In this document: positions 25,697-42,770 of the stretch, piece after piece | Layout of the letters: every line of letters starts with the position of its first letter | Position numbering within the stretch: position 1 is the stretch's first letter | From: Pseudomonas fluorescens | GTDB taxonomy: Bacteria; Pseudomonadota; Gammaproteobacteria; Pseudomonadales; Pseudomonadaceae | Length of the DNA: 64,000 nucleotides | Assembly (NCBI RefSeq): GCF_902497775.2 | Contig: NZ_OZ024668.1 | Location: 2,379,826-2,443,825, forward strand | Reading direction: 5' to 3' | Program-made: the position numbers and the translations under genes | The notes under the pieces: model-generated | Databases searched by the model: none | Seen by the model: the letters and a program-made list of their open reading frames with translations, nothing else | What the model was told of the DNA's origin: nothing

Positions 25697-25734
25697 TGTC
25701 ATCAAATGAAAACAGCGTGTCGTCCGATGCGAAG
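25697..25734 (+). promoter_or_regulatory. Paired 17-bp AraC-type operator and promoter of the quinone oxidoreductase operon
   Basis: Two direct repeats start exactly 21 bp apart: TGTCATCAAATGAAAAC (25697-25713) and TGTCGTCCGATGCGAAG (25718-25734). The same arrangement occurs at 33278-33315. The last four bases of the second repeat begin a possible -35 (GAAGCA), and CATAGA at 25753-25758 is a possible -10 at 16-bp spacing; the ATG is at 25811. Helical phasing and overlap with the -35 are as expected for class II activation by an AraC protein. The AraC gene at 32149-33165 is the proposed regulator. Confidence 0.6.
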
Positions 25735-25810
25735 CACCCGGCAAGCGTTGGGCATAGAGTCCAGTCAACAAGAATTGACGCACTGCGTCAGGATAACTGG
25801 AGTGACATGC

Positions 25811-26791
25811 ATGGCCAAAGTCGTACGCTTCTATGAAACCGGTGGCCCCGAGGTACTGCGCTACGAGGAGGCCGAGGTCGGCGAGCCGGGCCCGGGCCAG
25901 GTGCGCCTGCGCCAGGTGGCGGTGGGCCTGAACTACGCCGACACCTACTTTCGCAACGGCACCTACCCGATCCCGATGCCCAACGGCATGGGCGTCGAAG
26001 CCGCCGGGGTGGTGGAGGCGCTGGGTGAGGGCGTAACCCAGGTCGCGGTCGGCGACCGGGTGACCTACACCGGTTTTCTCAACACCCTCGGCGCTTACTG
26101 CACCGAGCGTCTGATCCCGGCAGCGGCGTTGATCAGGCTGCCGGAAACCATCGCCTTCGAGACCGCCGCGGCGATGACCATGCGCGGCCTGACCTCGGCC
26201 TACCTGATGCGCCGCCTGTATGCCTTCAAGCCCGGTGACACGGTATTGCTGCATGCCGCTGCCGGCGGCGTCGGCCTGATCGTTGCGCAATGGGCACGCC
26301 TGCTCGGCCTGAGGGTGATCGGCACCGTGTCCACCGAGGCCAAGGCCGAAGTGGCGTTGGCCCATGGTTGCAGCCACATCATCAACTACAGCCATGAAGA
26401 CGTCGCCAAGCGCGTGCGTGAGCTCACCGATGGCGTCGGCGTCAACGTGGTGTTCGACAGCGTTGGCAAGAGCACCTTCATGGCCTCGCTGGACTCACTC
26501 AAACGCCGCGGGCTGATGGTCTGCGTGGGCACCGCCTCCGGCGGCATCACGCCGTTCGACCCGCAGATTTTGGCGATCAAAGGCTCGTTGCAGCTGACCC
26601 GTCCGGCGTTGGCCGACTTCATCGCCGATCCGGCCGAGAAGGCCGATCTTGCCGGCGAGCTGTTCGAGCACGTCAGCAGCGGGCGAATCAAGATCGAGAT
26701 CAACCAGCACTACGCATTGCAGGATGCCGTCCAGGCCCACCGTGACCTGGAAGCGCGCAAAACCACCGGCTCGTCGATCTTCGTCATCTGA
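25811..26791 (+). CDS. qor: NADPH:quinone oxidoreductase (MDR family, Qor-like)
   Basis: A 326-residue zinc-free medium-chain dehydrogenase/reductase. It begins AKVVRFYETGGPEVLRYEE as Qor proteins do, has the LNYADTYFRNG segment near residue 41 and the NADPH motif AAAGGVGLIVAQWA near residue 150. It lacks the catalytic and structural zinc ligands of alcohol dehydrogenases. Qor reduces quinones or conjugated enones. It is the first gene of the 25811-32130 operon, so it may act on an unsaturated or quinoid intermediate, or be a detoxifying enzyme. ATG 25811 is chosen by match to family N-termini. Confidence 0.86.
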   Translation: MAKVVRFYETGGPEVLRYEEAEVGEPGPGQVRLRQVAVGLNYADTYFRNGTYPIPMPNGMGVEAAGVVEALGEGVTQVAVGDRVTYTGFLNTLGAYCTERLIPAAALIRLPETIAFETAAAMTMRGLTSAYLMRRLYAFKPGDTVLLHAAAGGVGLIVAQWARLLGLRVIGTVSTEAKAEVALAHGCSHIINYSHEDVAKRVRELTDGVGVNVVFDSVGKSTFMASLDSLKRRGLMVCVGTASGGITPFDPQILAIKGSLQLTRPALADFIADPAEKADLAGELFEHVSSGRIKIEINQHYALQDAVQAHRDLEARKTTGSSIFVI

Positions 26792-26804
26792 AGAGGGCAA
26801 CAGC

Positions 26805-27653
26805 ATGCACATCGAACAACTGACCTGCGCCATCGGTGCGCAAATCACCGGGGTCAATCTGGCAGATGCGATTCATGACGACGACCTGTTCGAGCAACTG
26901 CGTGCGCAGTTGCTCAAGCACCGTGTGCTGTTTTTGCGCGATCAGACCTTCAGCCGCGCCGAGCACGTGGCCTTCGCCCGGCGCTTCGGCGAGTTGGAAG
27001 ACCACCCGGTGGCCGGCAGCGATCCCGAGCACCCGGGCCTGGTGCAGATCTACAAGCGCCCGGACCAGCCCGTCGACCGCTACGAGAACGCCTGGCACAC
27101 CGACGCCACCTGGCGCGAGACGCCACCCATGGGCTGCGTGTTGCGCTGTGTCGAATGCCCGCCGGTAGGCGGTGACACCCTGTGGGCGAACATGGTCCTG
27201 GCGTACCAGAACCTGCCGGAAGACGTAAAAGCCAAGATCGAGGGCCTGCGCGCCCGGCACAGCATCGAGGCCAGTTTTGGCGCCGCCATGCCGATGGAAA
27301 AGCGCCTGGCGCTCAAGGCGCAGTTCCCCGACGCCGAACACCCGGTGGTGCGTACCCATCCGCACACCGGTGAGCAGGTGCTGTTCGTCAACGCTTTTAC
27401 CACCCACTTCAGCAACTACCACACGCCGCAGCGGGTGCGTTTCGGCCAGGACGCCAACCCCGGTGCCAGTGACTTGCTGCGCTACCTGATCAGCCAGGCC
27501 TACCTGCCCGAGTACCAGGTGCGCTGGCGCTGGAAGCCCAACAGCGTGGCGATCTGGGACAACCGCAGCACCCAGCACTACGCGGTGATGGACTACCCGC
27601 CTTGCCACCGCAAGATGGAGCGGGCCGGGATCAAGGGCGACCGCACCTTCTGA
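26805..27653 (+). CDS. TauD/TfdA-family Fe(II)/2-oxoglutarate-dependent dioxygenase
   Basis: A 282-residue dioxygenase of normal TauD length. The iron ligands are visible: His98 and Asp100 in AWHTDATW, and His258 in STQHYAVMDY; Arg273 in ERAGIKGD should bind 2-oxoglutarate. Family members hydroxylate carbon next to a sulfonate, sulfate ester, ether or amine, releasing sulfite, sulfate or an aldehyde. The YeiH gene in the same operon makes a sulfur-containing substrate attractive, but this is inference. ATG 26805 lies 13 bp after qor and is preceded by AGAGGG. Confidence 0.88.
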   Translation: MHIEQLTCAIGAQITGVNLADAIHDDDLFEQLRAQLLKHRVLFLRDQTFSRAEHVAFARRFGELEDHPVAGSDPEHPGLVQIYKRPDQPVDRYENAWHTDATWRETPPMGCVLRCVECPPVGGDTLWANMVLAYQNLPEDVKAKIEGLRARHSIEASFGAAMPMEKRLALKAQFPDAEHPVVRTHPHTGEQVLFVNAFTTHFSNYHTPQRVRFGQDANPGASDLLRYLISQAYLPEYQVRWRWKPNSVAIWDNRSTQHYAVMDYPPCHRKMERAGIKGDRTF

Positions 27654-27698
27654 AGGCCCGCAACACCCCAGGACAATAACAAGACCGAGGACTACAGC

Positions 27699-28751
27699 AT
27701 GCAATTCTTCGACGATTCATTGCACCCGGAAAACATGGAAAAGGTGGTGATCACCGTCGCCCCGTATGGCCCGGAATGGATGCCAGAGGACTTTCCCGAA
27801 GACATTCCGCTGACCATGGACGAACAGGTGCAAAAGGCAGTCGACTGCTATGAAGCCGGCGCCACCGTACTCCACCTGCACGTGCGCGAACTGGACGGCA
27901 AGGGCTCCAAGCGCCTGTCGAAATTCAACGAACTGATTGCCGGCGTGCGCGAAGCGGTGCCGGAGATGATCATCCAGGTCGGCGGCTCGATTTCGTTCGC
28001 CCCGGAGAGCGATGGCGAAGCGGCCAAGTGGCTGTCCGATGACACCCGGCACATGCTCGCCGAGCTTACGCCCAAGCCAGACCAGGTCACCGTGGCGATC
28101 AACACCACGCAGATGAACATCATGGAGCTGCTGTATCCGCAGTATCTAGAAGGCACTTCCCTGGCCAATCCGGCGATCCAGGCCGCCTACAGCGAAATGA
28201 CCGTGCCGGCAGGCCCGGCCTGGGTTCGCGAACACCTGCGCCGCCTGCAGGCAAGCAACATCCAGCCGCACTTCCAACTGACCGGCATGCACGCCCTGGA
28301 AACCCTCGAACGCATCGTGCGCAAGGGTGACTACATGGGCCCGCTGAACCTGACCTGGATCGGCATTGGTGGCGGCTTCGATGGCCCCAACCCGTTCAAC
28401 TTCTTCAACTTCATTCACCGTGCGCCCAACGGCTGCACCCTGACCGCTGAATCGCTGCTGAAAAACGTGCTGCCGTTCAACACCATGGCCCTGGCCATGG
28501 GCTTGCACCCACGTTGCGGCAACGAAGACACCATCATCGACCAGCACGGCAAGCGCTTCGGTTCGGTGCAGCAGATCCAGCAGACCGTGCGCGTGGCCCA
28601 TGAACTGGGCCGTGAGATCGCCAACGGCAAGCAAGCGAGGGCCATCTACCGTATCGGCGAGCAGTACAGCAGCATCGAGCAGACCCTCAAGGCCAACGGC
28701 ATGGCGCCTAACCGCCAGCCGGGCCAGAAGGGTGTGCCGCAGCGCGCCTGA
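27699..28751 (+). CDS. BKACE (beta-keto acid cleavage enzyme, DUF849) protein
   Basis: A 350-residue TIM-barrel enzyme of the BKACE/3-keto-5-aminohexanoate cleavage family. Zinc ligands His59 and His61 are in VLHLHVRE; the family sequences MIIQVGGS, QFLTG-like HFQLTGMHAL, and the GLHPRCGNEDTI loop near 265-276 are present. These enzymes condense a beta-keto acid with acetyl-CoA and split it into acetoacetate and a new acyl-CoA. In this operon it would process a keto acid produced after dioxygenation. The N-terminal 12 residues look like an extra extension. Substrate (for example dehydrocarnitine-like) is open. Confidence 0.86.
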   Translation: MQFFDDSLHPENMEKVVITVAPYGPEWMPEDFPEDIPLTMDEQVQKAVDCYEAGATVLHLHVRELDGKGSKRLSKFNELIAGVREAVPEMIIQVGGSISFAPESDGEAAKWLSDDTRHMLAELTPKPDQVTVAINTTQMNIMELLYPQYLEGTSLANPAIQAAYSEMTVPAGPAWVREHLRRLQASNIQPHFQLTGMHALETLERIVRKGDYMGPLNLTWIGIGGGFDGPNPFNFFNFIHRAPNGCTLTAESLLKNVLPFNTMALAMGLHPRCGNEDTIIDQHGKRFGSVQQIQQTVRVAHELGREIANGKQARAIYRIGEQYSSIEQTLKANGMAPNRQPGQKGVPQRA

Positions 28752-28758
28752 TTGGCCA

Positions 28759-28786
28759 GGCCCGGTACGCCAAGGCGTGCCGGGCC
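28759..28786 (+). other. Strong intercistronic hairpin
   Basis: A 13-bp stem GGCCCGGTACGCC / GGCGTGCCGGGCC with an AA loop (one G-U pair) follows the BKACE stop by 7 bp. No T-tract follows directly; a T-rich then A-rich stretch comes about 40 bp later (TTTTCAGCTTTTATAAAAAA). It may protect the 3' end of the upstream message and lower expression of the genes that follow. Confidence 0.55.
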
Positions 28787-28869
28787 GCCAATGCGCAGCG
28801 CTGACCGTCGGGCTTTTCAGCTTTTATAAAAAAAACAAGACTCATGCCAGACAATCCCAAGGAGGCAGC

Positions 28870-30150
28870 ATGGCCGCCTATCTCGCCAGCGCCACAGACG
28901 ATGGTGCCAATACTTCACAGGGCATTCCACGGCGCTATGCCTGGATTGTCTTTGCCTTGACCTTCGGCCTGCTGATTTCCGACTACATGTCGCGGCAGGT
29001 CCTCAATGCAGTATTCCCGCTGCTCAAGGCCGAATGGGCGTTGAGCGACAGCCAGTTGGGCCTGCTCAGCGGCATTGTCGCGCTGATGGTCGGGCTGCTG
29101 ACCTTTCCCTTGTCGCTGCTGGCCGACCGCTTCGGGCGGATCAGGAGCCTGGTGCTGATGGCCGTACTGTGGAGCCTGGCCACCCTCGGCTGCGCGCTTG
29201 CCGACAACTACCCGCAGATGTTCGCCGCGCGCTTTCTGGTCGGCGTCGGTGAAGCGGCCTACGGCAGCGTCGGGATTGCCGTGGTGGTCGCGGTGTTCCC
29301 CCGTGACATGCGCGCCACCCTGGCCGGGGCCTTCATGGCCGGCGGCATGTTCGGCTCGGTGCTGGGCATGGCCCTGGGCGGCTTGATGGCCCAGCACTTT
29401 GGCTGGCGCTGGGCGTTTGCCGGCATGGCCCTGTTCGGCCTGTTGCTGGCGCTGCTGTACCCGCTGATTGTCAAAGAGGCGAAGATTGCTCCGCAACGCG
29501 TCAACGCCACCGCCTGCAAGATCGCCCGGCCACTGCACACCTTATACGCCAGCCCCTCGGTGATCGCCGCTTACGTCGGCAGCGGCTTGCAGTTGTTCGT
29601 TGGCGGTACGGTGATCGTCTGGATGCCCAGCTACTTGAACCGCTACTACGCCATGAGCACCGACCAGGCCGGTGTTGTAGCGGCAATCATCGTACTGTGC
29701 AGCGGTATCGGCATGATTCTCTGCGCCATGCTCTGTGATCGCCTCGGCCGCCAGCGCCCGGACCGCAAGATCAGCCTGGCCATCGGCTATTGCCTGGGCA
29801 GCTGCCTGTTGCTGTCGATTGCCTTTGCGCTGCCTGCAGGCACCGCGCAACTGGTGCTGATCTGCCTGGGGATGATGGTCGCCGCCGGCACCAACGGACC
29901 GTCCAGCGCCATGGTCGCCAACCTCACCCATTACTCGGTGCATGGCACCGCGTTTGCCACCCTGACCTTGGCCAACAACCTGCTCGGGCTGGCTACCGGG
30001 CCTTTGATTACCGGCCGTGTCTCCGACCTGATCGGCCTGCACGCTGCCTTCCAACTGGTGCCGCTGATCAGCATCGCTGCGGCGGCGGTGTTTTGCATTG
30101 CCAAGCGTCATTACCACCGTGACATCGCCCGCCTGGAGTTGAAACCGTGA
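28870..30150 (+). CDS. MFS transporter (anion/aromatic acid type)
   Basis: A 426-residue permease with 12 helices. Loop 2-3 carries the MFS motif LADRFGRIRS and helix 4 has RFLVGVGEAAYGS, as in acid:proton symporters. ATG 28870 follows AAGGAGGCAGC, an excellent ribosome site, and is the natural start. It probably imports the operon's substrate. The last four bases overlap the start of the DsbA-like gene (GTGA). Confidence 0.85.
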   Translation: MAAYLASATDDGANTSQGIPRRYAWIVFALTFGLLISDYMSRQVLNAVFPLLKAEWALSDSQLGLLSGIVALMVGLLTFPLSLLADRFGRIRSLVLMAVLWSLATLGCALADNYPQMFAARFLVGVGEAAYGSVGIAVVVAVFPRDMRATLAGAFMAGGMFGSVLGMALGGLMAQHFGWRWAFAGMALFGLLLALLYPLIVKEAKIAPQRVNATACKIARPLHTLYASPSVIAAYVGSGLQLFVGGTVIVWMPSYLNRYYAMSTDQAGVVAAIIVLCSGIGMILCAMLCDRLGRQRPDRKISLAIGYCLGSCLLLSIAFALPAGTAQLVLICLGMMVAAGTNGPSSAMVANLTHYSVHGTAFATLTLANNLLGLATGPLITGRVSDLIGLHAAFQLVPLISIAAAAVFCIAKRHYHRDIARLELKP

Positions 30151-30800
30151 AGCACGTGTTGTCGATCGAAGTGTTCTTTGACTTTATCTGCCCCTGGTGC
30201 CTGATCGGCCAGGCTCATCTGCAGCGGGCCCTGGAGCAACTGCGCCGCGAACAGCCCGAGGTCGAGGTCAAGCTCCACTTACGCGGCGTGCAACTGCTGC
30301 CGCAGATGGCCAGGACCGGCCAGCCGTTCGAGGCGTTCTACCGCAAGCGCCTGGGCAGTGATGAGGCAGTACGCCTGCGCCAGGCGCAGGTTCACGCCGC
30401 TGCCGAGGCTGCCGGGGTGAGTATTGATTTTGCCCGCATCAGTCGCATGCCCAATACCGCCGACGCCCATCGTCTGCTGCAGCGCGCCGTGGCGTTGGGC
30501 ACGGCAGAGCAGGGTGAAGCCCTGTTGGCCAAGCTGTTTTGCGCCTACTTTCAGCAGGGCAAGGATCTGGGCGATCCGATCACTTTACTGCACATCGCCC
30601 GCGCCTGTGGCCTGGAGCCGGCACAGGTTGCCGATTGCCTGCGCGGTGATGCCAGCCCGTTCATTGGCGCAAATGACCAGGCTGCCGATGGCGTGCCTTG
30701 CTTTCGTCTCAATCAGCGCTTGCGAGTGTCGGGAGCGCAGCCGGTCGAGGTGCTGCTGCAGGCCATGGCTGAGGCCCTGCAAGAGCGGGTCCCGGCATGA
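30147..30800 (+). CDS. DsbA-family thiol oxidoreductase (FrnE-like)
   Basis: A 217-residue cytoplasmic thioredoxin-fold protein without signal peptide. The redox motif is Cys15-Pro-Trp-Cys18 in FFDFICPWCLIG, and the family sequence continues with the inserted helical domain and a cis-proline region VPCFRLN near 190. FrnE-like proteins act as disulfide isomerases or glutathione-dependent isomerases in aromatic and polyketide pathways. The start is GTG, overlapping the MFS gene by 4 bp; its own stop overlaps the Rieske gene by 4 bp. The tight coupling suggests a direct role in this pathway. Confidence 0.85.
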   Translation: MKHVLSIEVFFDFICPWCLIGQAHLQRALEQLRREQPEVEVKLHLRGVQLLPQMARTGQPFEAFYRKRLGSDEAVRLRQAQVHAAAEAAGVSIDFARISRMPNTADAHRLLQRAVALGTAEQGEALLAKLFCAYFQQGKDLGDPITLLHIARACGLEPAQVADCLRGDASPFIGANDQAADGVPCFRLNQRLRVSGAQPVEVLLQAMAEALQERVPA

Positions 30801-31123
30801 GTCAGCGCTATCGGGTTGCGGCCGACAAAGTGCCGGCGCGTGGCGGGCGGGTGTTGCTCGAATGGCAGGGCAAGAGCGTGGCGCTGTTCAACGTCGCTGA
30901 CACCTATTACGCCATCGACGACAGCTGCCCCCACCAGGGCGCCTCGCTGTGCGGCGGGCGCCTGGACGGGCGGGTCATCCAGTGCTGCGCCCATGGCCTG
31001 CGCTTTGATCTGGCCAGCGGCTACTTGCTCAACTCCAATCAACTCAAGGTTGCCAGCTACCCGGTCGAGCGCCAGGGCGAGCAACTGTTCATTGTTTTAG
31101 CGTGCAAGGAACCGGGCCAATGA
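30797..31123 (+). CDS. Small Rieske [2Fe-2S] ferredoxin-like protein
   Basis: A 108-residue stand-alone Rieske protein. Cluster ligands are Cys44 and His46 in CPHQGASL and Cys62 and His65 in CCAHGLRF. It resembles the ferredoxin subunits of ring-hydroxylating dioxygenases and NirD-like proteins. No Rieske oxygenase large subunit or ferredoxin reductase is encoded near, so its redox partner is unknown; the flavin-free Qor and the DsbA-like protein are candidates only by position. ATGA overlaps on both sides show co-translation with DsbA and YeiH. Confidence 0.87.
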   Translation: MSQRYRVAADKVPARGGRVLLEWQGKSVALFNVADTYYAIDDSCPHQGASLCGGRLDGRVIQCCAHGLRFDLASGYLLNSNQLKVASYPVERQGEQLFIVLACKEPGQ

Positions 31124-32130
31124 GCGTGATCGCAATTGCCGCCGTCAACCACCGCACCCGGGAACTGGCACCGGGCTTTATCGTCAGCCTGATCGCGGCG
31201 GCGGCGGCCAGCTTTCTCAGTGAGCACTACGATGCCCCGGTGATGCTGTTTGCCTTGTTGCTCGGCATGGCCTTGAACTTTCTTGCCAGCGATGGCCGTT
31301 GCAAAGCAGGTATCGAATTCACCGCACGTACGGTGCTGCGCCTGGGTGTCGCGCTGCTGGGCATGCGCATTACCCTGAGCCAGATCGTGAGCCTGGGCTG
31401 GAAGCCGGTGGCGCTGGTGGTGATTCTGGTGGTAGTGACCATCCTGGTCTCGGTGGTGGCAGCCCGGGCCCTGGGTTTTCAGCGTTTGTTCGGCATGCTC
31501 ACCGGCGGTGCCACGGCCATTTGCGGTGCTTCAGCGGCCCTGGCGCTGGCCGCGGCCTTGCCCCATCACCCGCAAAAAGAGCGCGCCACCTTGTTTACCG
31601 TGATTGGCGTGTCGGCGTTGTCGACCCTGGCGATGATCGTCTACCCGATGATTGCCAGCTGGCTGCAATTGTCGCCGCAACAGGCCGGGGTGTTTCTGGG
31701 GGCGACCATTCATGACGTGGCGCAAGTGGTGGGCGCGGGGTACAGCATGTCCACCGAGACCGGCGATGTAGCCACCGTGGTCAAGCTGATGCGCGTGGCC
31801 ATGTTGCTGCCGGTGATTGTCTGTGCGGCGATGATTACCCGCCGGGCCGGCGGTGATGCCAGCGGGCAGCGGCCGCCATTGCTGCCGTGGTTTGCCGTCG
31901 GTTTCGTATTGCTGGCGTGCATCAACAGTACCGGCTGGGTGTCGGCGGCCGTGCAGGGCGGGGTCAACGACCTGTCGCGCTGGTGCCTGGTGGTGGCGAT
32001 CAGTGCCCTGGGCATGAAGACTCAGCTCAAGGAACTGGCGGCGGTGGGCTTCAAGCCGATTGCGCTGATGGTGGGTGAGACGGTGTTCCTGGTGCTGCTG
32101 GTGTTGGCGTTGATGCACTGGGGGTTGTAG
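31120..32130 (+). CDS. YeiH/UPF0324-family putative sulfate exporter
   Basis: A 336-residue membrane protein with about 10 helices. It has the YeiH family sequences LLGMALNFLA, RLGVALLGMRITLSQI and ATIHDVAQVVGAGYSMS. Proteins of this family (COG2855) have been proposed to export sulfate or sulfite in bacteria that degrade sulfonates. Its place in one operon with a TauD-type dioxygenase supports release of an inorganic sulfur anion, but this remains inference. ATG 31120 overlaps the Rieske stop (ATGA). It is the last gene of the operon. Confidence 0.85.
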   Translation: MSVIAIAAVNHRTRELAPGFIVSLIAAAAASFLSEHYDAPVMLFALLLGMALNFLASDGRCKAGIEFTARTVLRLGVALLGMRITLSQIVSLGWKPVALVVILVVVTILVSVVAARALGFQRLFGMLTGGATAICGASAALALAAALPHHPQKERATLFTVIGVSALSTLAMIVYPMIASWLQLSPQQAGVFLGATIHDVAQVVGAGYSMSTETGDVATVVKLMRVAMLLPVIVCAAMITRRAGGDASGQRPPLLPWFAVGFVLLACINSTGWVSAAVQGGVNDLSRWCLVVAISALGMKTQLKELAAVGFKPIALMVGETVFLVLLVLALMHWGL

Positions 32131-32148
32131 TTGCAGCTCCCACAAAGG

Positions 32149-33165
32149 TCAGTGTTGACTGTCGCGCCGGTCATGCTGCGTCCGCCAACTCGCCGGTGGC
32201 ATGCCGAATTGGGCAATGAACCAGCGGGTAAATGAGCTGGGCATCGAGTAACCCAACATGTCGGCAATCCGCCCCAGTGAATAGCTGGGGTTTTCCAGGT
32301 AGCGGATCACCAGGTCACGGCGCACGCCGTTGATCAGGTCGCTGAACGTCACCCCACATTCCTCCAGGCGCCGCTGCAAGGTGCGCACGTTCATGCCCTG
32401 GGTCTGCGCCACTTGCTCGATGGTCGCCCGGCCCATGGGCAGCAGCAGGTAGATGGTCTTGCGCATTTCCAGCTCCAGCGACAACTTGCCACCGGCCTGC
32501 AAGGTGTCCAGGTAACGCTGCGCCAGACGCGCCATGGCCTCGTTGGCCAAGGGGTTGGCGGTGTCGAGGTCGGTCGCCGGGCAGACGATGCCATTGAATT
32601 CGCTACCAAACACCAGTTTGCAGCCAAAAATGCGCCGATGAATCGCCAGGTCCGCCGGGGCGGCGTGGGTGAAATTGGCGCTGATCGGGTGCCAGTGAGC
32701 CCCCAGTAGCGCGGCGCACAGGCGCAGCATCACGCCAATGGCCAGTTCCGTGGCTTGGCGGCCGCGGTGGGGCAGGTCGGTGACCACTTCTTCACGAATG
32801 ATTACAGTCTTGCCGGCTTCTTCGATATGGATGGCCAGGGCGTCGTTGAGTAAGTGCCGGTACTGGACGATCACCTGCAGGGCATCGCGCAGGGTGCGCT
32901 GATGGCTGAGCAGCAGGCTGATCTCGCCAAAGTCCGAGAGTTGGCGCAGCTCGGCCATGCGCAGGCCGAAGGTTTCACAGCCACTGACCCGCGCCGACTC
33001 TTCCAGCAAGGCCACCACACTGGACACCGCAATACGCTGATTGGGGTCGTCGAGCAGGGCGGCGCTGAGGCCGGCCTGGGCCAACAAGGCATGGGGGTTG
33101 AGCCCAAGGTGGCGAGACACCTCAAGGTAGTTGGTCAGGCTTGCAGCACGTACGAGGGCGGTCAT
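32149..33165 (-). CDS. AraC-family regulator with arabinose-binding-like N-terminal domain (OruR type)
   Basis: A 338-residue regulator. Residues 20-200 match the PF12625-type ligand domain (LRTLRDAL-like LSHQRTLRDALQVIVQYRHLLNDAL). The C-terminus has AraC helix-turn-helix units (TIEQVAQTQGMNVRTLQRRL and SLGRIADMLGYSMPSSFTRWF). It is convergent with the catabolic operon to its left and divergent from the hydrolase operon to its right. Direct repeats of the same type lie upstream of both operons, so it is proposed as their shared activator and possibly its own regulator, since one repeat (33235) lies nearest its own start. Confidence 0.88.
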   Translation of the reverse strand: MTALVRAASLTNYLEVSRHLGLNPHALLAQAGLSAALLDDPNQRIAVSSVVALLEESARVSGCETFGLRMAELRQLSDFGEISLLLSHQRTLRDALQVIVQYRHLLNDALAIHIEEAGKTVIIREEVVTDLPHRGRQATELAIGVMLRLCAALLGAHWHPISANFTHAAPADLAIHRRIFGCKLVFGSEFNGIVCPATDLDTANPLANEAMARLAQRYLDTLQAGGKLSLELEMRKTIYLLLPMGRATIEQVAQTQGMNVRTLQRRLEECGVTFSDLINGVRRDLVIRYLENPSYSLGRIADMLGYSMPSSFTRWFIAQFGMPPASWRTQHDRRDSQH

Positions 33166-33234
33166 TTTTGTTGTTTTCCACGCGGGGTCATCGGGCGTCC
33201 CGCTTCTGTGGCGGGTCGTTTCTTATAGCCTGTG

Positions 33235-33315
33235 TGTCGTCAAATGAGAAGCTGCCGGAAAAGACCGCTTGCAGCCTTGTCATCAAATGAGAAGTCACTG
33301 ACGCGCAATGTGAAG
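33235..33315 (+). promoter_or_regulatory. Triple AraC-type operator and promoter of the hydrolase-DUF1302 operon
   Basis: Three direct copies occur: TGTCGTCAAATGAGAAG (33235-33251), TGTCATCAAATGAGAAG (33278-33294) and a weaker TGACGCGCAATGTGAAG (33299-33315). The last two start 21 bp apart, as in the pair at 25697-25734, and the outer one is 43 bp away, about two more 21-bp units. A possible -35 (GAAGCG) starts in the weak copy and ATTACT at 33334 is a possible -10; from the GAAG to the -10 is 22 bp, the same as at the other promoter. The hydrolase GTG is at 33400. Confidence 0.6.
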
Positions 33316-33399
33316 CGTGGCCGCAGACGGGTGATTACTGTGGCTGTGCAAGCGCTCGAGATTACCTGCGAGCGGACTGTCTTGAGCATAGGTGCCGAC

Positions 33400-33966
33400 G
33401 TGGAAAAACTGCAGACCCGCGCAACTGTCCTGATCGTCCCCGGCCTGCGCGAGCACGTTGCCGAACACTGGCAGACCCTGCTGGCGGCGCGCCTGGCCAA
33501 GGTCCATACGGTGCCACCGTTGCAGCGCAACGGCCTGGACTGCAATGCCCGGGTCGAGGCCATCGAGCAGGCGCTGCAGCAGATCGACGGCGAGGTGGTG
33601 CTGGTGGCGCACAGCGCCGGGGTGCTGATGGTGGCCCATTGGGCCGCGTGCTATCAGCGGCCGATCAAAGGCGCGCTGCTGGCGGCGCCGCCAGACCTGC
33701 AAGCGCCGTGGCCCGCCGCCTACCCAAGCCCTGACAGCCTGCGCGCCAACGGCTGGAGCCCGCTGCCGATCACACCGCTGCCGTTCCCAAGCATCGTTGC
33801 CGCCAGCAGCAATGATCACCTGGCCAGCCTTGAGGCGGTGAGCAGCATGGCCCGCGGCTGGGGCAGCCAGTTGCTCGAACTTGGCGCCGTCGGCCACCTC
33901 AACCCGGCGGCAGGCTTTGGCCCCTGGCCCGAGGCCGAAACCCTGATCCAGGCCCTGGATCGCTAA
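33400..33966 (+). CDS. RBBP9/YdeN-family serine hydrolase
   Basis: A 188-residue alpha/beta hydrolase. The catalytic triad is Ser72 in VAHSAGV, Asp139 in SSNDH and His166 in VGHLN. RBBP9/YdeN proteins are small serine hydrolases without a lid domain; substrates are poorly known, probably esters or peptides. The GTG at 33400 is preferred: AGGTG lies six bases upstream and the translation then begins like the family (TVLIVPGLREH). A longer frame reaches up to 33232 but would run through the operator repeats. It is probably the first gene of the long rightward operon and may release an acid from an ester. Confidence 0.83.
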   Translation: MEKLQTRATVLIVPGLREHVAEHWQTLLAARLAKVHTVPPLQRNGLDCNARVEAIEQALQQIDGEVVLVAHSAGVLMVAHWAACYQRPIKGALLAAPPDLQAPWPAAYPSPDSLRANGWSPLPITPLPFPSIVAASSNDHLASLEAVSSMARGWGSQLLELGAVGHLNPAAGFGPWPEAETLIQALDR

Positions 33967-34052
33967 TGCCGCAGTAGCGCACGGACGCTTGAGCAAAGCC
34001 CGTAACCGACGGGCAGCGAAAAAAAACAATAACAATAAGTGGAGTCATCGCG

Positions 34053-36008
34053 ATGCCAAACCCTCGCATTCACCGTGCTGTGAAGCCACAGCGCTGCCTG
34101 TTGGCCTGCGCCATCGGTCTCTTGGCGCTACCCGGCGCCCAGGCCTTTGAGGTCGATACCGGCAGTGAAGACTGGGCCGTGCGCCTGGATAACACGGTCA
34201 AGTACAACTACGGCGTGCGCACCGAAAGCGCCGACAAGCGCCTGCTGGCGACCCCCAACAACAACGACGGCAACTACAACTTCCGCAAGGCCGGGACCAC
34301 GGTGACCAACCGTGTCGACCTGCTCACCGAGCTGGATGTGATCTACCAGGGCAACATGGGCTTTCGGGTCAGCGCCGCCAGTTGGTACGACAAGGCCTAC
34401 GACAACACCGGCTCCAACGCCAACCCGTTCGTCAACGGCAACGGCGGCCAGTCGGGTATCAACCCCAGCCTCAACGGTTTGCCCGGCACCGGCGTGCCCC
34501 TGGGCAGTTCGCACCTGAGTAACTACGCCCAGCGCTACTACAGCGGCCCGTCCGGGGAAGTGCTCGACGCCTTTGTGTTCATGCGCCGGGAAGTGGGCGA
34601 TTCCTCGGAAATCAGCGGCAAGCTCGGCCAGCACAACCTGTTCTGGGGCGAGACCCTGCTCAACCCGGTGCATTCGCTGAGCTACGGCCAGTCCGGCCTG
34701 GACCTGGCCAAACTGGCCGCCTCGCCGGGCACCGAAGCCAAAGAACTGTTCGTGCCGCGCAATCAGCTCTCGACCTCGTTTCTGGTCAATCCCGAGCTCA
34801 CCGTCGGCGCGCAGTACTTCCTCGACTGGGACGCCGCACGGTTACCGGAAGCGGGCACTTATTACGGTGGCTCGGACCTGGTGGGCGAGGGCGCGCAAAG
34901 CTTTCTGCTCGGCCATACCGGCACCCCCGGGCTGATCCCGGTGCGCGGCGCGCTGACCAATATCCGCCGCGGCCACGACCTGACCCCGGACAAGCGCGGT
35001 GACTGGGGCGTCATGGCCAAGTGGTCGCCGGATTGGCTGGGCGGCACCCTTGGTTTTTACTACCGTAAGACCTCGGAGATCATGCCCCAGGCCTGGCTTG
35101 ATACCCGCGGCCTGACCGTCGCCAACGGCCCGTTCGGCAGCCCGCCGGGCAGTGCCCAGGGCGCGGTAGGCAACCTCTACAACTCGCTGCAAAGCACCAC
35201 CTACCAGTTTGCCTACGCCGACAACATCGATATCTACGGCCTGAGCCTGTCCAAGGACGTCGGCGGCATCAGCGTCGGCAGCGACCTGAACATCCGCCAC
35301 AACATGCCCCTGGCGAGTATCCCGGCGATCCTCAGTGCGCCGGGGCAGGCGGGCCTGGGTGGAGGTTTTGGCCTGTTGCCGACGCGTTCGCCGAGCAGTG
35401 GCGTGGTTTACCAAGTGCCATCCGACGGCGACAGCATGAGCGCCACCGGCGATACCCTGCACTGGACCCTCAACGGCCTGATGACCATTGGCGATACGCC
35501 GCTGTTCGATTCGGCGACCCTGCTTGGCGAGCTGTTCTACAGCAACCTGCTCAAGCTCGATAGCCACAACGAGGCCCTGTACAAGGGCAAGAGCAGCTAC
35601 CGCGGCATTGACCAGCCGACCCGCGACAACTGGGGGATCGCGGTCAACTTCACCCCGACCTGGTATCAGGTGTTTGCGGGCATGGACCTGAGCATGCCGC
35701 TGTCGATCAACCTCGGCCTGGACGGCGTATCGCCGGTGCAGGGCGGTGGTGCCGAGAACACCGGCAACTACGCCGTGGGCCTGAGCGCGGCGATCTACAA
35801 CCAGTACTTCGTCGACCTCAAGTACGTCGATGGCTTCGGCAAGACCCAGTCCTGCAACGACGGCCAGACCGACGGCAGCACCCCCAACGCCCTGGACGGC
35901 GAACAGGACTACACCTGCTACGGCGGCGGCTACGCCGCGTTCTCTGGCGGCGCCGCCACCACCGAGGACCGTGGCGCGCTGTACCTGACCCTGAAAACCA
36001 CCTTCTGA
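34053..36008 (+). CDS. DUF1302 outer-membrane protein
   Basis: A 651-residue exported protein. A Sec signal (CLLACAIGLLALPGAQA) is cut near residue 32. The mature part is rich in aromatic-ended beta strands and Gly/Asn loops, and ends in TLKTTF with a terminal Phe, as in outer-membrane beta barrels. DUF1302 proteins occur with DUF1329, a YCF48 protein and an MMPL permease in clusters for uptake or turnover of hydrophobic compounds. Here it should form the outer-membrane channel or receptor. The start ATG follows GTGGAG. An 86-bp gap from the hydrolase contains an inverted repeat GCCCGT...ACGGGC. Confidence 0.87.
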   Translation: MPNPRIHRAVKPQRCLLACAIGLLALPGAQAFEVDTGSEDWAVRLDNTVKYNYGVRTESADKRLLATPNNNDGNYNFRKAGTTVTNRVDLLTELDVIYQGNMGFRVSAASWYDKAYDNTGSNANPFVNGNGGQSGINPSLNGLPGTGVPLGSSHLSNYAQRYYSGPSGEVLDAFVFMRREVGDSSEISGKLGQHNLFWGETLLNPVHSLSYGQSGLDLAKLAASPGTEAKELFVPRNQLSTSFLVNPELTVGAQYFLDWDAARLPEAGTYYGGSDLVGEGAQSFLLGHTGTPGLIPVRGALTNIRRGHDLTPDKRGDWGVMAKWSPDWLGGTLGFYYRKTSEIMPQAWLDTRGLTVANGPFGSPPGSAQGAVGNLYNSLQSTTYQFAYADNIDIYGLSLSKDVGGISVGSDLNIRHNMPLASIPAILSAPGQAGLGGGFGLLPTRSPSSGVVYQVPSDGDSMSATGDTLHWTLNGLMTIGDTPLFDSATLLGELFYSNLLKLDSHNEALYKGKSSYRGIDQPTRDNWGIAVNFTPTWYQVFAGMDLSMPLSINLGLDGVSPVQGGGAENTGNYAVGLSAAIYNQYFVDLKYVDGFGKTQSCNDGQTDGSTPNALDGEQDYTCYGGGYAAFSGGAATTEDRGALYLTLKTTF

Positions 36009-36030
36009 GTCACACAGGAAAACAACCATC

Positions 36031-37389
36031 ATGAACTACGTGCACACCCTGTTGGCCACGTGCCTGTCGCTGGCTGCCCTGAACCCGGCTCACGCCGCTG
36101 TCTCCAGCGAACAGGCCGCGCGCCTGGGCACCAGCCTGACGCCGATTGGCGCAGAAAAGGCCGCCAACGCCGACGGTTCTATCCCCGCCTACCAGGGCGG
36201 CCTGCTGACCCCGCCGGCGGCGTTCAAGAGCGGCGCGAGCATGCGCCCGGACCCGTTCGCCGAAGAAAAACCGCTGCTGCTCATCGATGGCAAGAACGCC
36301 GACCAGTACAAGGGGCAACTGACCGCCACCACCCAGGAACTGCTCAAGCGCTTCCCCAGCTATCGCGTCGATGTCTACCCCACCCATCGCACCGTGGCGC
36401 TGCCGCAGCCGGTGCTCGACAACACCCTGAAGAACGCCGTGGGGGCCCGCAGCCAGGAAGGCGGTAGTGCGCTCGACAACGTACTGCCGGGTATTCCGTT
36501 CCCGATCCCGCAGACCGGCGCCGAGGCCATGTGGAACTTCCTCCTGCGTTACCAGGGCGTGAGCATGACCGCCAAGTACGACTCGTGGAACGTCGATGCC
36601 GCTGGCAACGCGACCTTGAGCACCACCGGCCAGGCCAACATCAGCTACCCGATCTACGAGGACATGGCCAAGCCGATTGGCGCCAAGGACACCTACTACC
36701 AGATGAAGCTCACCTACACCGCGCCGGCCCGGCGCGCCGGTGAGGCAATGATGCTGCGCGATGCCGCCAACCCACTGGTGCAGCCGCGCAGCGCCTGGCA
36801 GTACCTGCCGGGCCAGCGCCGGGTCAAGCTGGCGCCGAACCTGGCCTACGACACGCCCAACCCCGGTACTTCCGGCTCGGGCACCTACGATGACGTGTTC
36901 GTCTTCAACGGCGCCCTGGACCGCTACGACTGGACCCTGGTCGGCAAGCAGGAAATGTACGTGCCGTACAACACCTACCGCCTGACCTACAACACCGACG
37001 TCAAGCAACTGACCACAGCCAATCACCTCGCGCCGCAATTCGTGCGCTGGGAAAAACACCGGGTCTGGGTAGTGGAAGGCAAGCTCAAGGACGGCGCCCG
37101 GCACATCTATCACAAGCGCCGCTTCTACCTCGACGAAGACAGCTGGATTGCCCTGGCGTCGGATCAGTATGACGCCCGTGGCCAACTGTACCGCGGCTCG
37201 TTCGCCTTCCTCAGCCAGAGCTACGACAAACAGACCCCGGATGCCACGCCGTTCATGATCTACGACCTGATCGGCGGCACCTACAACCTCAATGGCGTGG
37301 TCGGAGCCTACGGCGGTATTCGCTATATCGAGCCACTGTCGCGCACCCAATGGTCGCCCGAGTCCCTGGCCGGGGCTGGCATTCGCTGA
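36031..37389 (+). CDS. DUF1329 periplasmic/outer-membrane lipid-handling protein
   Basis: A 452-residue exported protein: the signal peptide ends AHA before VSSEQAARLG, which is the standard DUF1329 beginning, and the family sequence AEKAANADGSIPAYQGG follows. The fold is thought to be related to LolA/LolB lipoprotein carriers, so it may ferry a hydrophobic ligand between membranes. It is 22 bp after DUF1302 and always pairs with it in such clusters. There is no lipobox, so it is soluble in the periplasm or peripheral. Role as carrier is inferred. Confidence 0.88.
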   Translation: MNYVHTLLATCLSLAALNPAHAAVSSEQAARLGTSLTPIGAEKAANADGSIPAYQGGLLTPPAAFKSGASMRPDPFAEEKPLLLIDGKNADQYKGQLTATTQELLKRFPSYRVDVYPTHRTVALPQPVLDNTLKNAVGARSQEGGSALDNVLPGIPFPIPQTGAEAMWNFLLRYQGVSMTAKYDSWNVDAAGNATLSTTGQANISYPIYEDMAKPIGAKDTYYQMKLTYTAPARRAGEAMMLRDAANPLVQPRSAWQYLPGQRRVKLAPNLAYDTPNPGTSGSGTYDDVFVFNGALDRYDWTLVGKQEMYVPYNTYRLTYNTDVKQLTTANHLAPQFVRWEKHRVWVVEGKLKDGARHIYHKRRFYLDEDSWIALASDQYDARGQLYRGSFAFLSQSYDKQTPDATPFMIYDLIGGTYNLNGVVGAYGGIRYIEPLSRTQWSPESLAGAGIR

Positions 37390-37421
37390 GCCCGTTGAGC
37401 ACGCATCGAGGAGGATCAGGG

Positions 37422-38504
37422 ATGGATGTTTTCAAACGCTGCAGCCTGACGCTGCTGGCCTGGGCCGCGCTGCACAGCGCGGTGCAGGCCGAGCCCTATG
37501 TCGACGTGCTCGACCTGCCAGCGCTGCCCAGCGCGCTGGCAGCGAGCAGCGCCTTGCGCGATGTCAGCCGCGCCGGCGCGCGGATGGTCGCGGTGGGGCC
37601 ACGCGGGCACATCCTGTACTCGGATGACCATGGCCGTCACTGGCAACAGGCCCGGGTGCCGGTCAGCGCCGACCTCAATGCGTTGAGCTTCGCGACGCCG
37701 GAGCTGGGGTGGGCGGTGGGTAACGACGGGGTGATCCTGCACAGCCGCGATGGCGGCCTGAGCTGGGAAAAGCAACTGGACGGCCGGGTGCTGGGCGATC
37801 AGGTGCTGGCGTATTACCAGGCCAAAGCCCAGGCCGCGCCCACCGACCCGGCCTGGGCGAACTGGGTCGGCGAGGGCCAGCGCCTGGTGGCAGAGGGCGC
37901 CGACAAGCCGTTGCTCGACGTGTGGTTCGCCGATGCCCGCCACGGCTATGCGGTAGGGGTGTTCAACCTGCTGCTGCACACCGTGGATGGCGGCCAGCAC
38001 TGGACGCCGTGGCTGGAGCGCAGCGACAACCCGCAGGGCCTGCACCTGACCGGCCTGGCCAGCGTCGACGGCGCGCTGTACATCAGCGGCGAGCAGGGCC
38101 TGCTGCTCAAGCTGAGCGCCGATGGCCAACGCTTCCAACGCCTGAGCACGCCGTATGCCGGCACGTTTTTCGGTGTTATCGGCAAACCGGGGGTGCTGCT
38201 GGCCTATGGGCTGCGCGGCCATGTATTGCGCAGCACCGACGGCGGTAGCCAGTGGCAGACGATCAAGACTGACCTGAACACCAGCATCACCGCCGCCAGC
38301 CTCGACGCCAGCGGGCGTTTCTGGCTGTCGAGCCAGGCCGGCGATCTGCTGCAAAGCGCTGATGACGGCGCCAGCTTCAGCGCCGTGGCCCAAGCCCAGC
38401 GTGCGCCGGTCAGTGGCGCCGCCTTTGATAGCGGCACCGACCTGGTGCTGGTCGGTGAGCGCGGCATTCGCACCCTGGCCCTCGAACAACCGCAGCAGCC
38501 ATAA
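37422..38504 (+). CDS. YCF48/HCF136-like beta-propeller protein
   Basis: A 360-residue exported beta-propeller. Signal peptide residues 1-23 end VQA. At least five Asp-box-like repeats of the form SxDxGxxW are visible (SDDHGRHW, SRDGGLSW, TVDGGQHW, STDGGSQW, SADDGASF). In plastids YCF48/HCF136 helps assemble photosystem II; bacterial relatives beside DUF1329 and MMPL genes probably serve as assembly or adaptor factors of the transport complex. ATG 37422 follows GAGGAGG. It lies 32 bp after DUF1329 and 15 bp before the permease gene. Confidence 0.85.
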   Translation: MDVFKRCSLTLLAWAALHSAVQAEPYVDVLDLPALPSALAASSALRDVSRAGARMVAVGPRGHILYSDDHGRHWQQARVPVSADLNALSFATPELGWAVGNDGVILHSRDGGLSWEKQLDGRVLGDQVLAYYQAKAQAAPTDPAWANWVGEGQRLVAEGADKPLLDVWFADARHGYAVGVFNLLLHTVDGGQHWTPWLERSDNPQGLHLTGLASVDGALYISGEQGLLLKLSADGQRFQRLSTPYAGTFFGVIGKPGVLLAYGLRGHVLRSTDGGSQWQTIKTDLNTSITAASLDASGRFWLSSQAGDLLQSADDGASFSAVAQAQRAPVSGAAFDSGTDLVLVGERGIRTLALEQPQQP

Positions 38505-38519
38505 CAAGAGAAAACCCTG

Positions 38520-40994
38520 ATGGCCGACATCCAACAAGACACTTTGCCGGTGATCCGCAACCTCAGCGACTTCGATGCGCGCTCCGGCAATCGCCTCGAA
38601 CGCCTGGTGTTCAACCATCGGCTGGCATTCATGCTGTGCATGCTGCTGGTGACCCTGGTGCTTGGCCACATGGCCCTGACCCGCCTGGAGCTGCGCCCCA
38701 GCTTCGAGAAAATGATCCCGCAGAGCCATCCCTATATCCAGAACTACCTGGACAACCGCCAGTCGCTGCGCGGCCTGGGCAATTCCTTGCGGGTGGTGGT
38801 GGAAAACACCCAGGGCGATATCTTCGACCCGGCCTATCTGCAGACCCTGCGCCAGATCAACGACGAGCTGTTCCTTAGCCAGGGCGTCGATCGCGCCTGG
38901 ATGAAATCGCTGTGGAGCCCGGCGGTGCGCTGGACCGAAGTCACCGAAGAGGGCTTCCAGGGCGGGCCGGTGATGCCCGATGCCTACCAGGGTTCGGCCG
39001 CCAATATCCAGCAACTACGGCAGAACATCGAGCGCGCCAATATCGTCGGCAGCCTGGTGGCCCGTGACTTCACGTCGAGCATGCTCATCGTGCCGTTGCT
39101 CGACCAGGCTTCGGCGACCGGGGCCGGCATCGACTATCACGGGTTCTCGGTCAAGCTTGAGCAGTTGCGCGAGCACTACGAGGCGGGCGGCGTCTACAAA
39201 TTGCACGTAATCGGCTTTGCCAAGCTGATGGGCGACCTGATCGACGGGCTGCTGCAGGTGATGTTGTTCTTCGCCCTGGCGGTGCTGACCACGCTGCTGA
39301 TCATCTACCTCTACACCCGCTGCGTGCGCAGTACCTTGCTGGTGGTGCTGTGCTCGTTGACGGCGGTGGTCTGGCAGTTGGGCATCGTCGCCTGGCTGGG
39401 CTATGCCATCGACCCGTATTCGATCCTGGTGCCGTTTCTGATCTTTGCCATTGGTGTATCCCACGCAGCGCAGAAGATGAACGGCATCATGCAGGACATC
39501 GGCCGCGGCACCCACCGGCAGATCGCCGCGCGCTATACCTTTCGGCGCCTGTTCGTCGCAGGCGTTACCGCCTTGCTGGCCGATGCGGTGGGCTTTGCCG
39601 TGCTGATGCTGATCGATATCCCGGTGATCCAGGACCTGGCGATTACCGCCAGTATCGGCGTCGCGGTGCTGATCTTCACCTCGCTGCTGCTGATGCCGGT
39701 GGCGCTGTCGTATGTAGGCGTCGGTCGCAAGGCGGCGCAACGGGCCTTGTGTATCGACTTGCGCGCAGCCGAGCATCGCGGTTTTGGCAAGCTCTGGGAC
39801 GTGCTCGATCGCTTCACCGAACGCAAATGGGCCACTGGCGCGGTGCTGGTGGCGGCACTGCTCGGTGCCGGCGGCTTCTGGCTGAGCCTGCAACTGAAGA
39901 TCGGCGACCTCGACAGCGGCGCCCCGGAGCTGCACGCCGACTCGCGCTACAACCGCGACAACGCCTACATCACTGGCCATTACGCGCTGTCCAGCGACAC
40001 CTTTGCAGTGATGATCAAGACCGCCCCGGAGGGCTGCCTGCGCTACCAGACCCTGGTGCTCGCCGACCGCCTGGCCTGGGCGCTGCAACAAAACCCGGGG
40101 GTGCAGACCACCTTGTCGCTGACCAATGCGGTGCGCCAGATCACCGCCGGCACCTATGAGGGCAACCCCAAGCTGAGCAGCATCCAGCGCAACCAGGACG
40201 TGCTCAACTACGCCGCCCAGCAAGCCTCGGTGAACGCCCCGGAGCTGTTCAACAACGACTGCTCACTGATGCCGGTCATCGCCTACCTCAAGGATCACAA
40301 GGCCGACACCCTCGAACAGGTGGTGGCGATTGCCGAACGCTTTGCCCAGGCCAACAGCAGCGAAGATCGCCAGTTCCTCCTGGCTGCCGGCAGCGCCGGG
40401 ATCGAAGCAGCGACCAATATCGTGGTGCGCGACGCCAACCGCACCATGCTGTTGCTGGTGTACCTGGCGGTAACGCTATTCTGCCTGATCACCTTTCGCA
40501 GCTGGCGCGCGACCCTGGTGGCGGTACTGCCGTTGATGCTCACCTCAGTGTTGTGCGAGGCGCTGATGGTGATGATGGGGATTGGCGTCAAGGTCGCCAC
40601 CTTGCCGGTGATCGCCCTGGGCGTGGGCATTGGCGTGGATTACGCGTTGTACCTGCTCAGCGTGCAGCTGCATTACCAGCGCCAGGGCCTGACGCTGGCG
40701 CAGTCTTACAACAACGCCGTGGCCTTTACCGGCCGGGTGGTCGGCCTGGTCGGCATCACCCTGGCCGCCGGTGTGGTGGGCTGGGCCTGGTCGCCGATCA
40801 AGTTCCAGGCCGACATGGGCATCCTGCTCACCTTCATGTTCCTCTGGAACATGCTCGGCGCACTGATCCTGATCCCGGCGCTGTCGCACTTCCTCCTGCC
40901 CGCCAGCAAGGCGCGAGCACCTTCACCCAGCCCCACAAGCGTCGAGGGGCTGCACCTCAACAGCCAAAAAGCAGAGTGTTCATCGCATGTCTGA
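38520..40994 (+). CDS. RND/MMPL-family inner-membrane permease
   Basis: An 824-residue permease with the RND half-repeat pattern: helix 1 near residues 42-60, a large periplasmic domain (about 65-235), helices 2-6 (about 240-400), a second helix near 440, a second periplasmic domain (about 460-640) and a final helix bundle (about 640-800). The sequence FLIFAIGVSHAAQKMNG and its repeat VIALGVGIGVDYALYLL mark the SSD-like helices. MMPL-like permeases without adaptor genes move lipids or hopanoids. With DUF1302, DUF1329 and YCF48 it likely forms an envelope-spanning route for a hydrophobic substrate. It overlaps the next gene by 8 bp. Confidence 0.88.
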   Translation: MADIQQDTLPVIRNLSDFDARSGNRLERLVFNHRLAFMLCMLLVTLVLGHMALTRLELRPSFEKMIPQSHPYIQNYLDNRQSLRGLGNSLRVVVENTQGDIFDPAYLQTLRQINDELFLSQGVDRAWMKSLWSPAVRWTEVTEEGFQGGPVMPDAYQGSAANIQQLRQNIERANIVGSLVARDFTSSMLIVPLLDQASATGAGIDYHGFSVKLEQLREHYEAGGVYKLHVIGFAKLMGDLIDGLLQVMLFFALAVLTTLLIIYLYTRCVRSTLLVVLCSLTAVVWQLGIVAWLGYAIDPYSILVPFLIFAIGVSHAAQKMNGIMQDIGRGTHRQIAARYTFRRLFVAGVTALLADAVGFAVLMLIDIPVIQDLAITASIGVAVLIFTSLLLMPVALSYVGVGRKAAQRALCIDLRAAEHRGFGKLWDVLDRFTERKWATGAVLVAALLGAGGFWLSLQLKIGDLDSGAPELHADSRYNRDNAYITGHYALSSDTFAVMIKTAPEGCLRYQTLVLADRLAWALQQNPGVQTTLSLTNAVRQITAGTYEGNPKLSSIQRNQDVLNYAAQQASVNAPELFNNDCSLMPVIAYLKDHKADTLEQVVAIAERFAQANSSEDRQFLLAAGSAGIEAATNIVVRDANRTMLLLVYLAVTLFCLITFRSWRATLVAVLPLMLTSVLCEALMVMMGIGVKVATLPVIALGVGIGVDYALYLLSVQLHYQRQGLTLAQSYNNAVAFTGRVVGLVGITLAAGVVGWAWSPIKFQADMGILLTFMFLWNMLGALILIPALSHFLLPASKARAPSPSPTSVEGLHLNSQKAECSSHV

Positions 40995-42759: not shown

Positions 42760-42770
42760 AGGACGCCCAC

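Follow-up and report, generated by a model that had tools for sequence, protein, structure and literature searches.

A 64,000-nucleotide stretch of the Pseudomonas fluorescens genome (NCBI RefSeq assembly GCF_902497775.2, contig NZ_OZ024668.1, positions 2,379,826 to 2,443,825; hereafter the window) contains two operons on the forward strand, separated by a gene for an AraC-family regulator on the reverse strand, and raises the question of whether this one regulator serves both. The original prediction, starting from 17-bp direct repeats found before each operon, had joined them into a single AraC regulon and a single pathway. This proposal is supported by comparison, with few exceptions: the repeat pair is conserved in relatives, is tied to the presence of the AraC gene and changes together with residue 310 of its product. 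Judged from the sequence comparisons presented below, it is very probable that the AraC protein drives both operons through tandem operators, as one 18.6-kb catabolic regulon. The predicted regulatory sites and the regulator gene are as follows.

25697..25713, forward strand: distal (strong) half-site of the operon 1 operator, from pattern searches; pair kept in relatives
25718..25734, forward strand: weaker, proximal half-site of the operon 1 operator at a 21-bp offset; overlaps the -35 region
25755..25760, forward strand: -10-like hexamer TAGAGT of operon 1, 20 bp after the proximal half-site
32149..33165, reverse strand: AraC-family regulator with a PF12625 ligand domain and HTH_18 (Pfam)
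33235..33251, forward strand: lone half-site, probable araC operator, some 70 bp before the start of araC
33278..33294, forward strand: distal half-site of the operon 2 operator, from pattern searches; pair kept in relatives
33299..33315, forward strand: proximal half-site of the operon 2 operator, at a 21-bp offset from the distal one
33336..33341, forward strand: -10-like hexamer TACTGT of operon 2, 20 bp after the proximal half-site

A search of the window for the half-site TGTCRTCAAATGARAAG, with up to 3 mismatches allowed, revealed four places, i.e. 25697 (1 mismatch), 25718 (3), 33235 (0) and 33278 (0), while 100 shuffles of the window gave a mean of 0.28 matches and a maximum of 2. The weak copy at 33299 (TGACGCGCAATGTGAAG) carries 5 mismatches and starts exactly 21 bp after 33278; the distal copy at 25697 ends in AAAAC, not AAG. 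In the 5.97-Mb genome, the 16-mer TGTCRTCAAATGARAA is present without mismatch at three places (25697, 33235 and 33278), and the only matches to the pair pattern, on either strand and with at most 3 mismatches, are those at 25697 and 33278. Thus the genome scan for the motif pair at 21-bp spacing, which had been suggested as a check, returned the two promoters as its sole matches. The occurrence of a strong 17-bp copy, followed at 21 bp by a weaker one, before both operons is far above chance, and the distances predicted from the second repeat to the start codon (76 bp to the ATG at 25811 and 84 bp to the GTG at 33400) were found to be correct.

The two promoters also share their layout. The -10-like hexamer, TA(G/C)(A/T)GT, starts in both cases 20 bp past the last base of the proximal half-site; the 22 bp given earlier from GAAG to the -10 measures this geometry in a slightly different way. 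In relatives, 74 of 76 distinct promoter sequences of the NADPH:quinone reductase gene (QOR, the first gene of operon 1) have their best TATAAT-like match at offset 20. Before the serine hydrolase gene that opens operon 2 it lies at offset 18 in 62 of 91 and at offset 20 in 22 of 91, a split arising because the consensus TTTACTGT allows two overlapping readings. The spacing count in relatives was made on sites pre-chosen at 21-bp spacing and shows only that no second spacing competes. In class II activation by AraC-family proteins the proximal site lies at about -35, with such a placement of half-site and -10 element. By this analogy, both window promoters show the geometry of class II activation.

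The conservation of the pair was followed in two sets of relatives. Stretches of 20 relatives, fetched by place, were scanned for single half-sites (up to 3 mismatches, no spacing rule); the strong copy and a recognisable second one 21 bp on precede QOR in all 16 stretches holding that promoter, and the same pair precedes the hydrolase gene in 19 of 20. A consensus built from these 20 loci, several of which represent the same species as the named loci, was applied to the named AraC loci, for which the best 80 of 146 relatives were kept. Of these, 77 contain the hydrolase gene and 60 contain QOR, with the pair upstream in 77/77 (0-6 mismatches of 34 positions) and 59/60 (0-7 mismatches of 34 positions), respectively, while 20 shuffles of each upstream region never fell below 11 mismatches. 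The pair lies 58-92 bp from the start codon of the hydrolase and 74-87 bp from that of QOR. Two promoters speak against a strictly shared operator: that of the hydrolase in locus L052, where the 20-relative scan detected no half-site within 3 mismatches, and that of QOR in L154, which lacks the pair in the 80-locus scan (13 mismatches).

Occurrence of the pair across the genus closely follows that of the regulator. Among 199 genus genomes, 31 have the AraC gene; the gene for the beta-keto acid cleavage enzyme (BKACE) occurs in exactly these, and the pair in these 31 plus G108 and G135. The set was extended by 199 new genomes to 398 (AraC query from L157, E ≤1e-130; genome handles matched between the result lists by eye), and here 78 genomes have AraC and 84 have the pair, which is present in every AraC-positive genome; among the new genomes, unused in pattern design, this holds for 47/47. 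A reversed-pattern control gave 0 matches in the 398 genomes. The pair without an AraC match occurs in six of 320 genomes. Two of these retain traces of the regulator gene, split over two contig ends in G232 and lying in two frames in G390. The other four (G108, G135, G228 and G301) have the appearance of deletion scars: G135 retains QOR and part of the TauD gene, a MocR-type gene and its neighbours remain beside the site in G108, and nothing but the site is left in G228. In G301 (L318, 8402-8936) a 71-residue QOR piece abuts the end of the operon 2 ligase gene and the operator remains; the stretch between QOR codon 71 and the vicinity of the ligase end, and with it the two-operon cluster, seems to have been deleted there.

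A further rearrangement was observed in G045 (loci L209, L047 and L212), where QOR, TauD and acyl-CoA dehydrogenase genes lie approximately 1.1 Mb from araC, with the operator kept. The dehydrogenase gene, part of operon 2 in the window, is thus grouped with genes of operon 1 there, and the operon 2 ligase gene is followed by BKACE. Because genes of the two operons have been exchanged in this genome, they would appear to serve one pathway.

A further link between regulator and operators is a co-change, analysed in 120 loci (102 distinct). When residue 310 of AraC is serine (S310), 151/152 sites have A at base 16 of the proximal half-site; with asparagine (N310) this base is C or T in 10/10 sites, and in a further 5/5 sites of three additional N310 clusters examined with hand-set patterns (15/15 in total). 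The change is seen at both promoters of the N310 loci. One G310 locus and one locus with a stop-shortened AraC have A at base 16, and in G204, whose AraC has G310 and K250, proximal base 5 is A instead of G at both promoters. Six genomes (G208, G278, G285, G311, G340 and G367) contain both an N310 and an S310 regulator, and the operators found beside each AraC follow that AraC's code. Residue 310 sits in the motif GYSMP[S/N]SFTRWF, which we take to be near the start of the recognition helix of the second helix-turn-helix (HTH) of AraC proteins. Several observations weigh against reading this rule too broadly: (i) a single S310 site has C at base 16 (L156), (ii) the S310 AraC loci L298 (G285) and L311 (G277) have no clear pair at the hydrolase or QOR gene, (iii) residue 250 differs together with residue 310, (iv) A16 is retained in the distal operon 2 half-site of N310 genomes, so that the rule is not uniform, and (v) N310 has a single origin on the tree (support 100/98) and, since it arose once, the co-change amounts to one evolutionary event at several sites. 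In L300, L304 and L306 the N310 clusters start with BKACE and keep N310-type operators, no QOR or hydrolase gene being seen in the stretch. At the level of sequence, the identity of the sites, their conservation, their link to the presence of AraC and their co-change with residue 310 are supported by comparison.

The operator architecture is of a known kind, that of the ARG box, and literature searches, judged mostly by titles and the beginnings of abstracts, returned no description of this regulator, half-site code or module. The ARG box is a tandem of TGTCGC-N6-GNAA half-sites with 5 bp between them, the second being weaker, and is bound by ArgR (PMC10963909; PMC4997734). The window operators have the same architecture, with half-sites starting with TGTC, AA at positions 15-16, a 21-bp period, copies 5 bp apart and a weaker second copy. 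It is nevertheless very unlikely that ArgR, a further member of the AraC family, binds them as ARG boxes. The strong copies in the window do not match the half-site TGTCGCN6GNAA but follow TGTCRTCAAATGARAAG, with RT instead of GC at positions 5-6 and A instead of G at position 13; the ARG-box pair pattern (1 mismatch) is found at one genome place, 722642, which is neither window promoter; and the operons have no visible arginine link. Moreover, ArgR is taken as general in the genus Pseudomonas, and 314 of the 320 genomes that have no AraC match lack the pair. The N-terminal domain of ArgR is GATase-like, unlike the PF12625 domain of the AraC protein described here.

The two other alternatives concern which protein occupies the sites and with what effect. 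A MocR/PdxR-type gene is adjacent and divergent to QOR in the window, and MocR-type proteins bind direct repeats; its product might then bind the operon 1 site, with the operons under different regulators. We regard this as extremely improbable, given that the gene lies beside QOR in 9 of the 55 loci where over 900 bp are available for it, against 59/60 for the site, that the same code precedes the hydrolase gene, where no MocR gene lies, and that the operon 1 site co-varies with AraC residue 310, against MocR as binder. A repressive role of AraC at both operators, or activation at one promoter and repression at the other, is unlikely, even though the sign of regulation is not fixed by sequence alone and repression through the lone half-site close to araC is quite conceivable. 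At both promoters 20 bp separate the end of the proximal half-site from the -10-like hexamer, the layout of class II activation by AraC-family proteins, and the direct repeats face the genes at both operons in the named-locus relatives. The preferred interpretation thus remains an AraC protein acting on both operons, presumably as an activator.

The regulator itself carries a C-terminal double HTH (PF12833, 63.2 bits, cut-off 33.6; PF00165, 28.1 bits, cut-off 26.6) that places it in the AraC/XylS family. Its best solved relative over the whole length is VirS of M. tuberculosis (PDB 8RCX, E 2.2e-30). The best NCBIfam match, QhpR, reaches 190.7 bits and stays below the cut-off of 250, as do the other equivalogs GliR (131.8 vs 570 bits) and CypR (84.3 vs 500 bits). 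VirS, QhpR, GliR and CypR are all PF12625-type relatives of this AraC, but have other targets. Among the best 80 named relatives, the closest are those of P. wadenswilerensis, P. donghuensis and P. arcuscaelestis (97% identity each).

The extra half-site copy reported at 33235 is present, without mismatch, and is better read as the operator of araC itself. A lone half-site was found 35-95 bp upstream of araC in 43 of the 80 loci and in 0 of 1600 shuffles, and in 10 further loci the main pair itself falls within this interval. Autoregulation of AraC through the lone half-site is likely because of this recurrence. In the 43 loci the site lies 43-78 bp from the araC start and its distance to the pair varies; its assignment to operon 2 was set aside, as it keeps its rough distance to the araC start and not to the pair.

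We infer that AraC binds these sites, activates rather than represses, regulates its own gene and responds to an inducer. The proposed mechanism is that two head-to-tail AraC monomers would occupy each of the tandem direct-repeat operators at 25697-25734 and 33278-33315, one 17-bp half-site each. The promoter-proximal monomer would overlap the -35 region and probably bring about class II activation of RNA polymerase. With an inducer held by the PF12625 domain, both operons would be switched on together, and the lone half-site at 33235 would serve the araC promoter.

Operon 1 (QOR-TauD-BKACE-MFS-DsbA-Rieske-YeiH) spans 25811-32130 and operon 2 (serine hydrolase-DUF1302-DUF1329-BNR-MMPL-acyl-CoA dehydrogenase-ligase) spans 33400-44417. 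Their genes, for two of which the open reading frame (ORF) is given, are listed below.

25811..26791, forward strand: NADPH:quinone reductase (QOR), first gene of operon 1, from profile searches
26649..27653, forward strand: TauD/TfdA-family 2-oxoglutarate dioxygenase; the ORF start overlaps QOR and the true start is probably internal
27699..28751, forward strand: BKACE
28600..30150, forward strand: MFS transporter
30147..30800, forward strand: DsbA-like thioredoxin-fold protein
30797..31123, forward strand: Rieske [2Fe-2S] ferredoxin
31102..32130, forward strand: YeiH-like (PF03601) putative sulfate/sulfite exporter, above the Pfam cut-off, last gene of operon 1
33400..33966, forward strand: serine hydrolase (PF06821), first gene of operon 2
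34053..36008, forward strand: DUF1302 protein (AmeA-like)
36031..37389, forward strand: DUF1329 protein (AmeB-like)
37350..38504, forward strand: YCF48/BNR-repeat protein (AmeC-like)
38520..40994, forward strand: MMPL/HAE3-like RND transporter (AmeD-like)
40987..42759, forward strand: acyl-CoA dehydrogenase
42588..44417, forward strand: AMP-dependent acyl-CoA ligase, last gene of operon 2; ORF, true start probably internal

Upstream of operon 1 and divergent from QOR lies the MocR/PdxR-type regulator gene (24122-25621), followed by genes for a TIM-barrel protein and an MFS transporter; the regulator gene is beside QOR in few relatives.

The TauD-type protein belongs to the TauD/TfdA superfamily (PF02668, 221.3 bits) and has the iron motif HxD...H, its WHTD and TQHYA aligning with E. 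coli TauD; the closest solved relative is 5VN6, named a taurine dioxygenase. It shares the Fe(II)/2-oxoglutarate dioxygenase fold and this motif with TauD and the alkylsulfatase AtsK, but scores below the taurine dioxygenase cut-off (NF007104, 259.6 bits vs 313). In operon 2, the DUF1302, DUF1329, COG4447/BNR and HAE3 RND genes stand in a row, the RND protein reaching 149.7 bits against TIGR00921 (HAE3; cut-off 351.9). Published work describes the same four gene types, in the same order, as AmeABCD, a monoterpene exporter of Castellaniella defragrans. The window cassette differs in having the serine hydrolase gene before it, the acyl-CoA dehydrogenase and ligase genes after it and the AraC gene beside it. 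Similarly, a comparative genomics study describes the AphR/AphS/AphT regulons of Betaproteobacteria, in which a like four-gene cassette falls under a catabolic-operon regulator, one case also including a chemotaxis transducer; those regulons have other regulators and aromatic substrates.

Additional pairs away from the cluster were sought in the first 199 genomes. SorA genes with an operator, away from the AraC cluster, occur in L193, L198, L200 and L207. Of 8 AraC-positive genomes in which SorA is intact, 7 have the operator in front of it, against 0 of 2 AraC-negative ones, and the SorA and SorB sulfite dehydrogenase proteins of G151 pass the NCBIfam cut-offs. Polyhydroxyalkanoate (PHA) synthase genes of two types lie behind an AraC-type operator in L192, L196, L201 and L202 (these four identified by Pfam), L203, L204, L320 and L321; some minus-strand PhaC loci of AraC-negative genomes do not count as controls in this comparison. 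A third PhaC type (at least 75% identity) is present in 7 of 199 genomes, all AraC-positive; the operator precedes it in G077, G088, G089 and G172 and is not directly before it in G027, G082 (PhaC inside the cluster) and G114. PHA synthase as a universal regulon member was set aside, since this type is found in 7/199 genomes and the site is not always present; in the window genome the PhaC-type operator pattern matches at no second place. The operator was also found before genes for a PAS-type chemoreceptor (L197; L048, weak pair; L206, by likeness of the first residues only), a second TauD (L216; L212, weak pair) and DUF1329 (L197). Good pairs without a clear same-strand downstream gene were recorded in L194 (7002), L195 (8050), L199 (7013) and L205 (7068). 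A paralogous cluster (L210, 5506; L211, 15767) encodes an AraC with 43-52% identity, a BKACE with 62-65% identity and DUF1302-MMPL proteins; a related tandem site before its YeiH gene starts with TGGC instead of TGTC and probably represents a further diverged code.

The joint occurrence of SorAB, the YeiH-like exporter and the TauD-type dioxygenase suggests sulfite release, and the AmeABCD-like cassette together with the acyl-CoA enzymes suggests a hydrophobic carbon part. Our best guess, weaker than the regulon assignment, is a pathway for the breakdown of a hydrophobic sulfonate, in which the TauD-type dioxygenase might release sulfite and the AmeABCD-like pump might protect the envelope. 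Against this guess stand the taurine dioxygenase score below its cut-off, the YeiH-like protein below that of TIGR00698 (161.5 bits vs 232.6), a SorA gene without the operator in G015, SorA without AraC in 2/199 genomes and the absence of any SorA match at E 1e-120 in the window genome.

It is possible, if still rather doubtful, that S310N, perhaps together with E250A, changes how the second HTH reads a single operator base and so acts as a natural orthogonal switch. Duplicated clusters with both codes might then coexist in one cell, since both operators moved with the regulator. On the same tentative view, the regulon would be a so far undescribed hydrophobic-sulfonate catabolic module, comprising (i) a sulfite-releasing dioxygenase, (ii) a sulfite exporter and SorAB, (iii) an AmeABCD-like pump, (iv) a dedicated PHA synthase and (v) a chemoreceptor. 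The N310/S310 pairs offer a ready natural test of how AraC-family proteins read their operators and of how duplicated regulons avoid cross-talk. More generally, two operons of unassigned function are hereby given a putative regulator, an operator code and a common task. For the DUF1302/DUF1329/MMPL cassettes, whose substrates are mostly unknown, the search for a substrate would become concrete, namely a search for compounds inducing either promoter.

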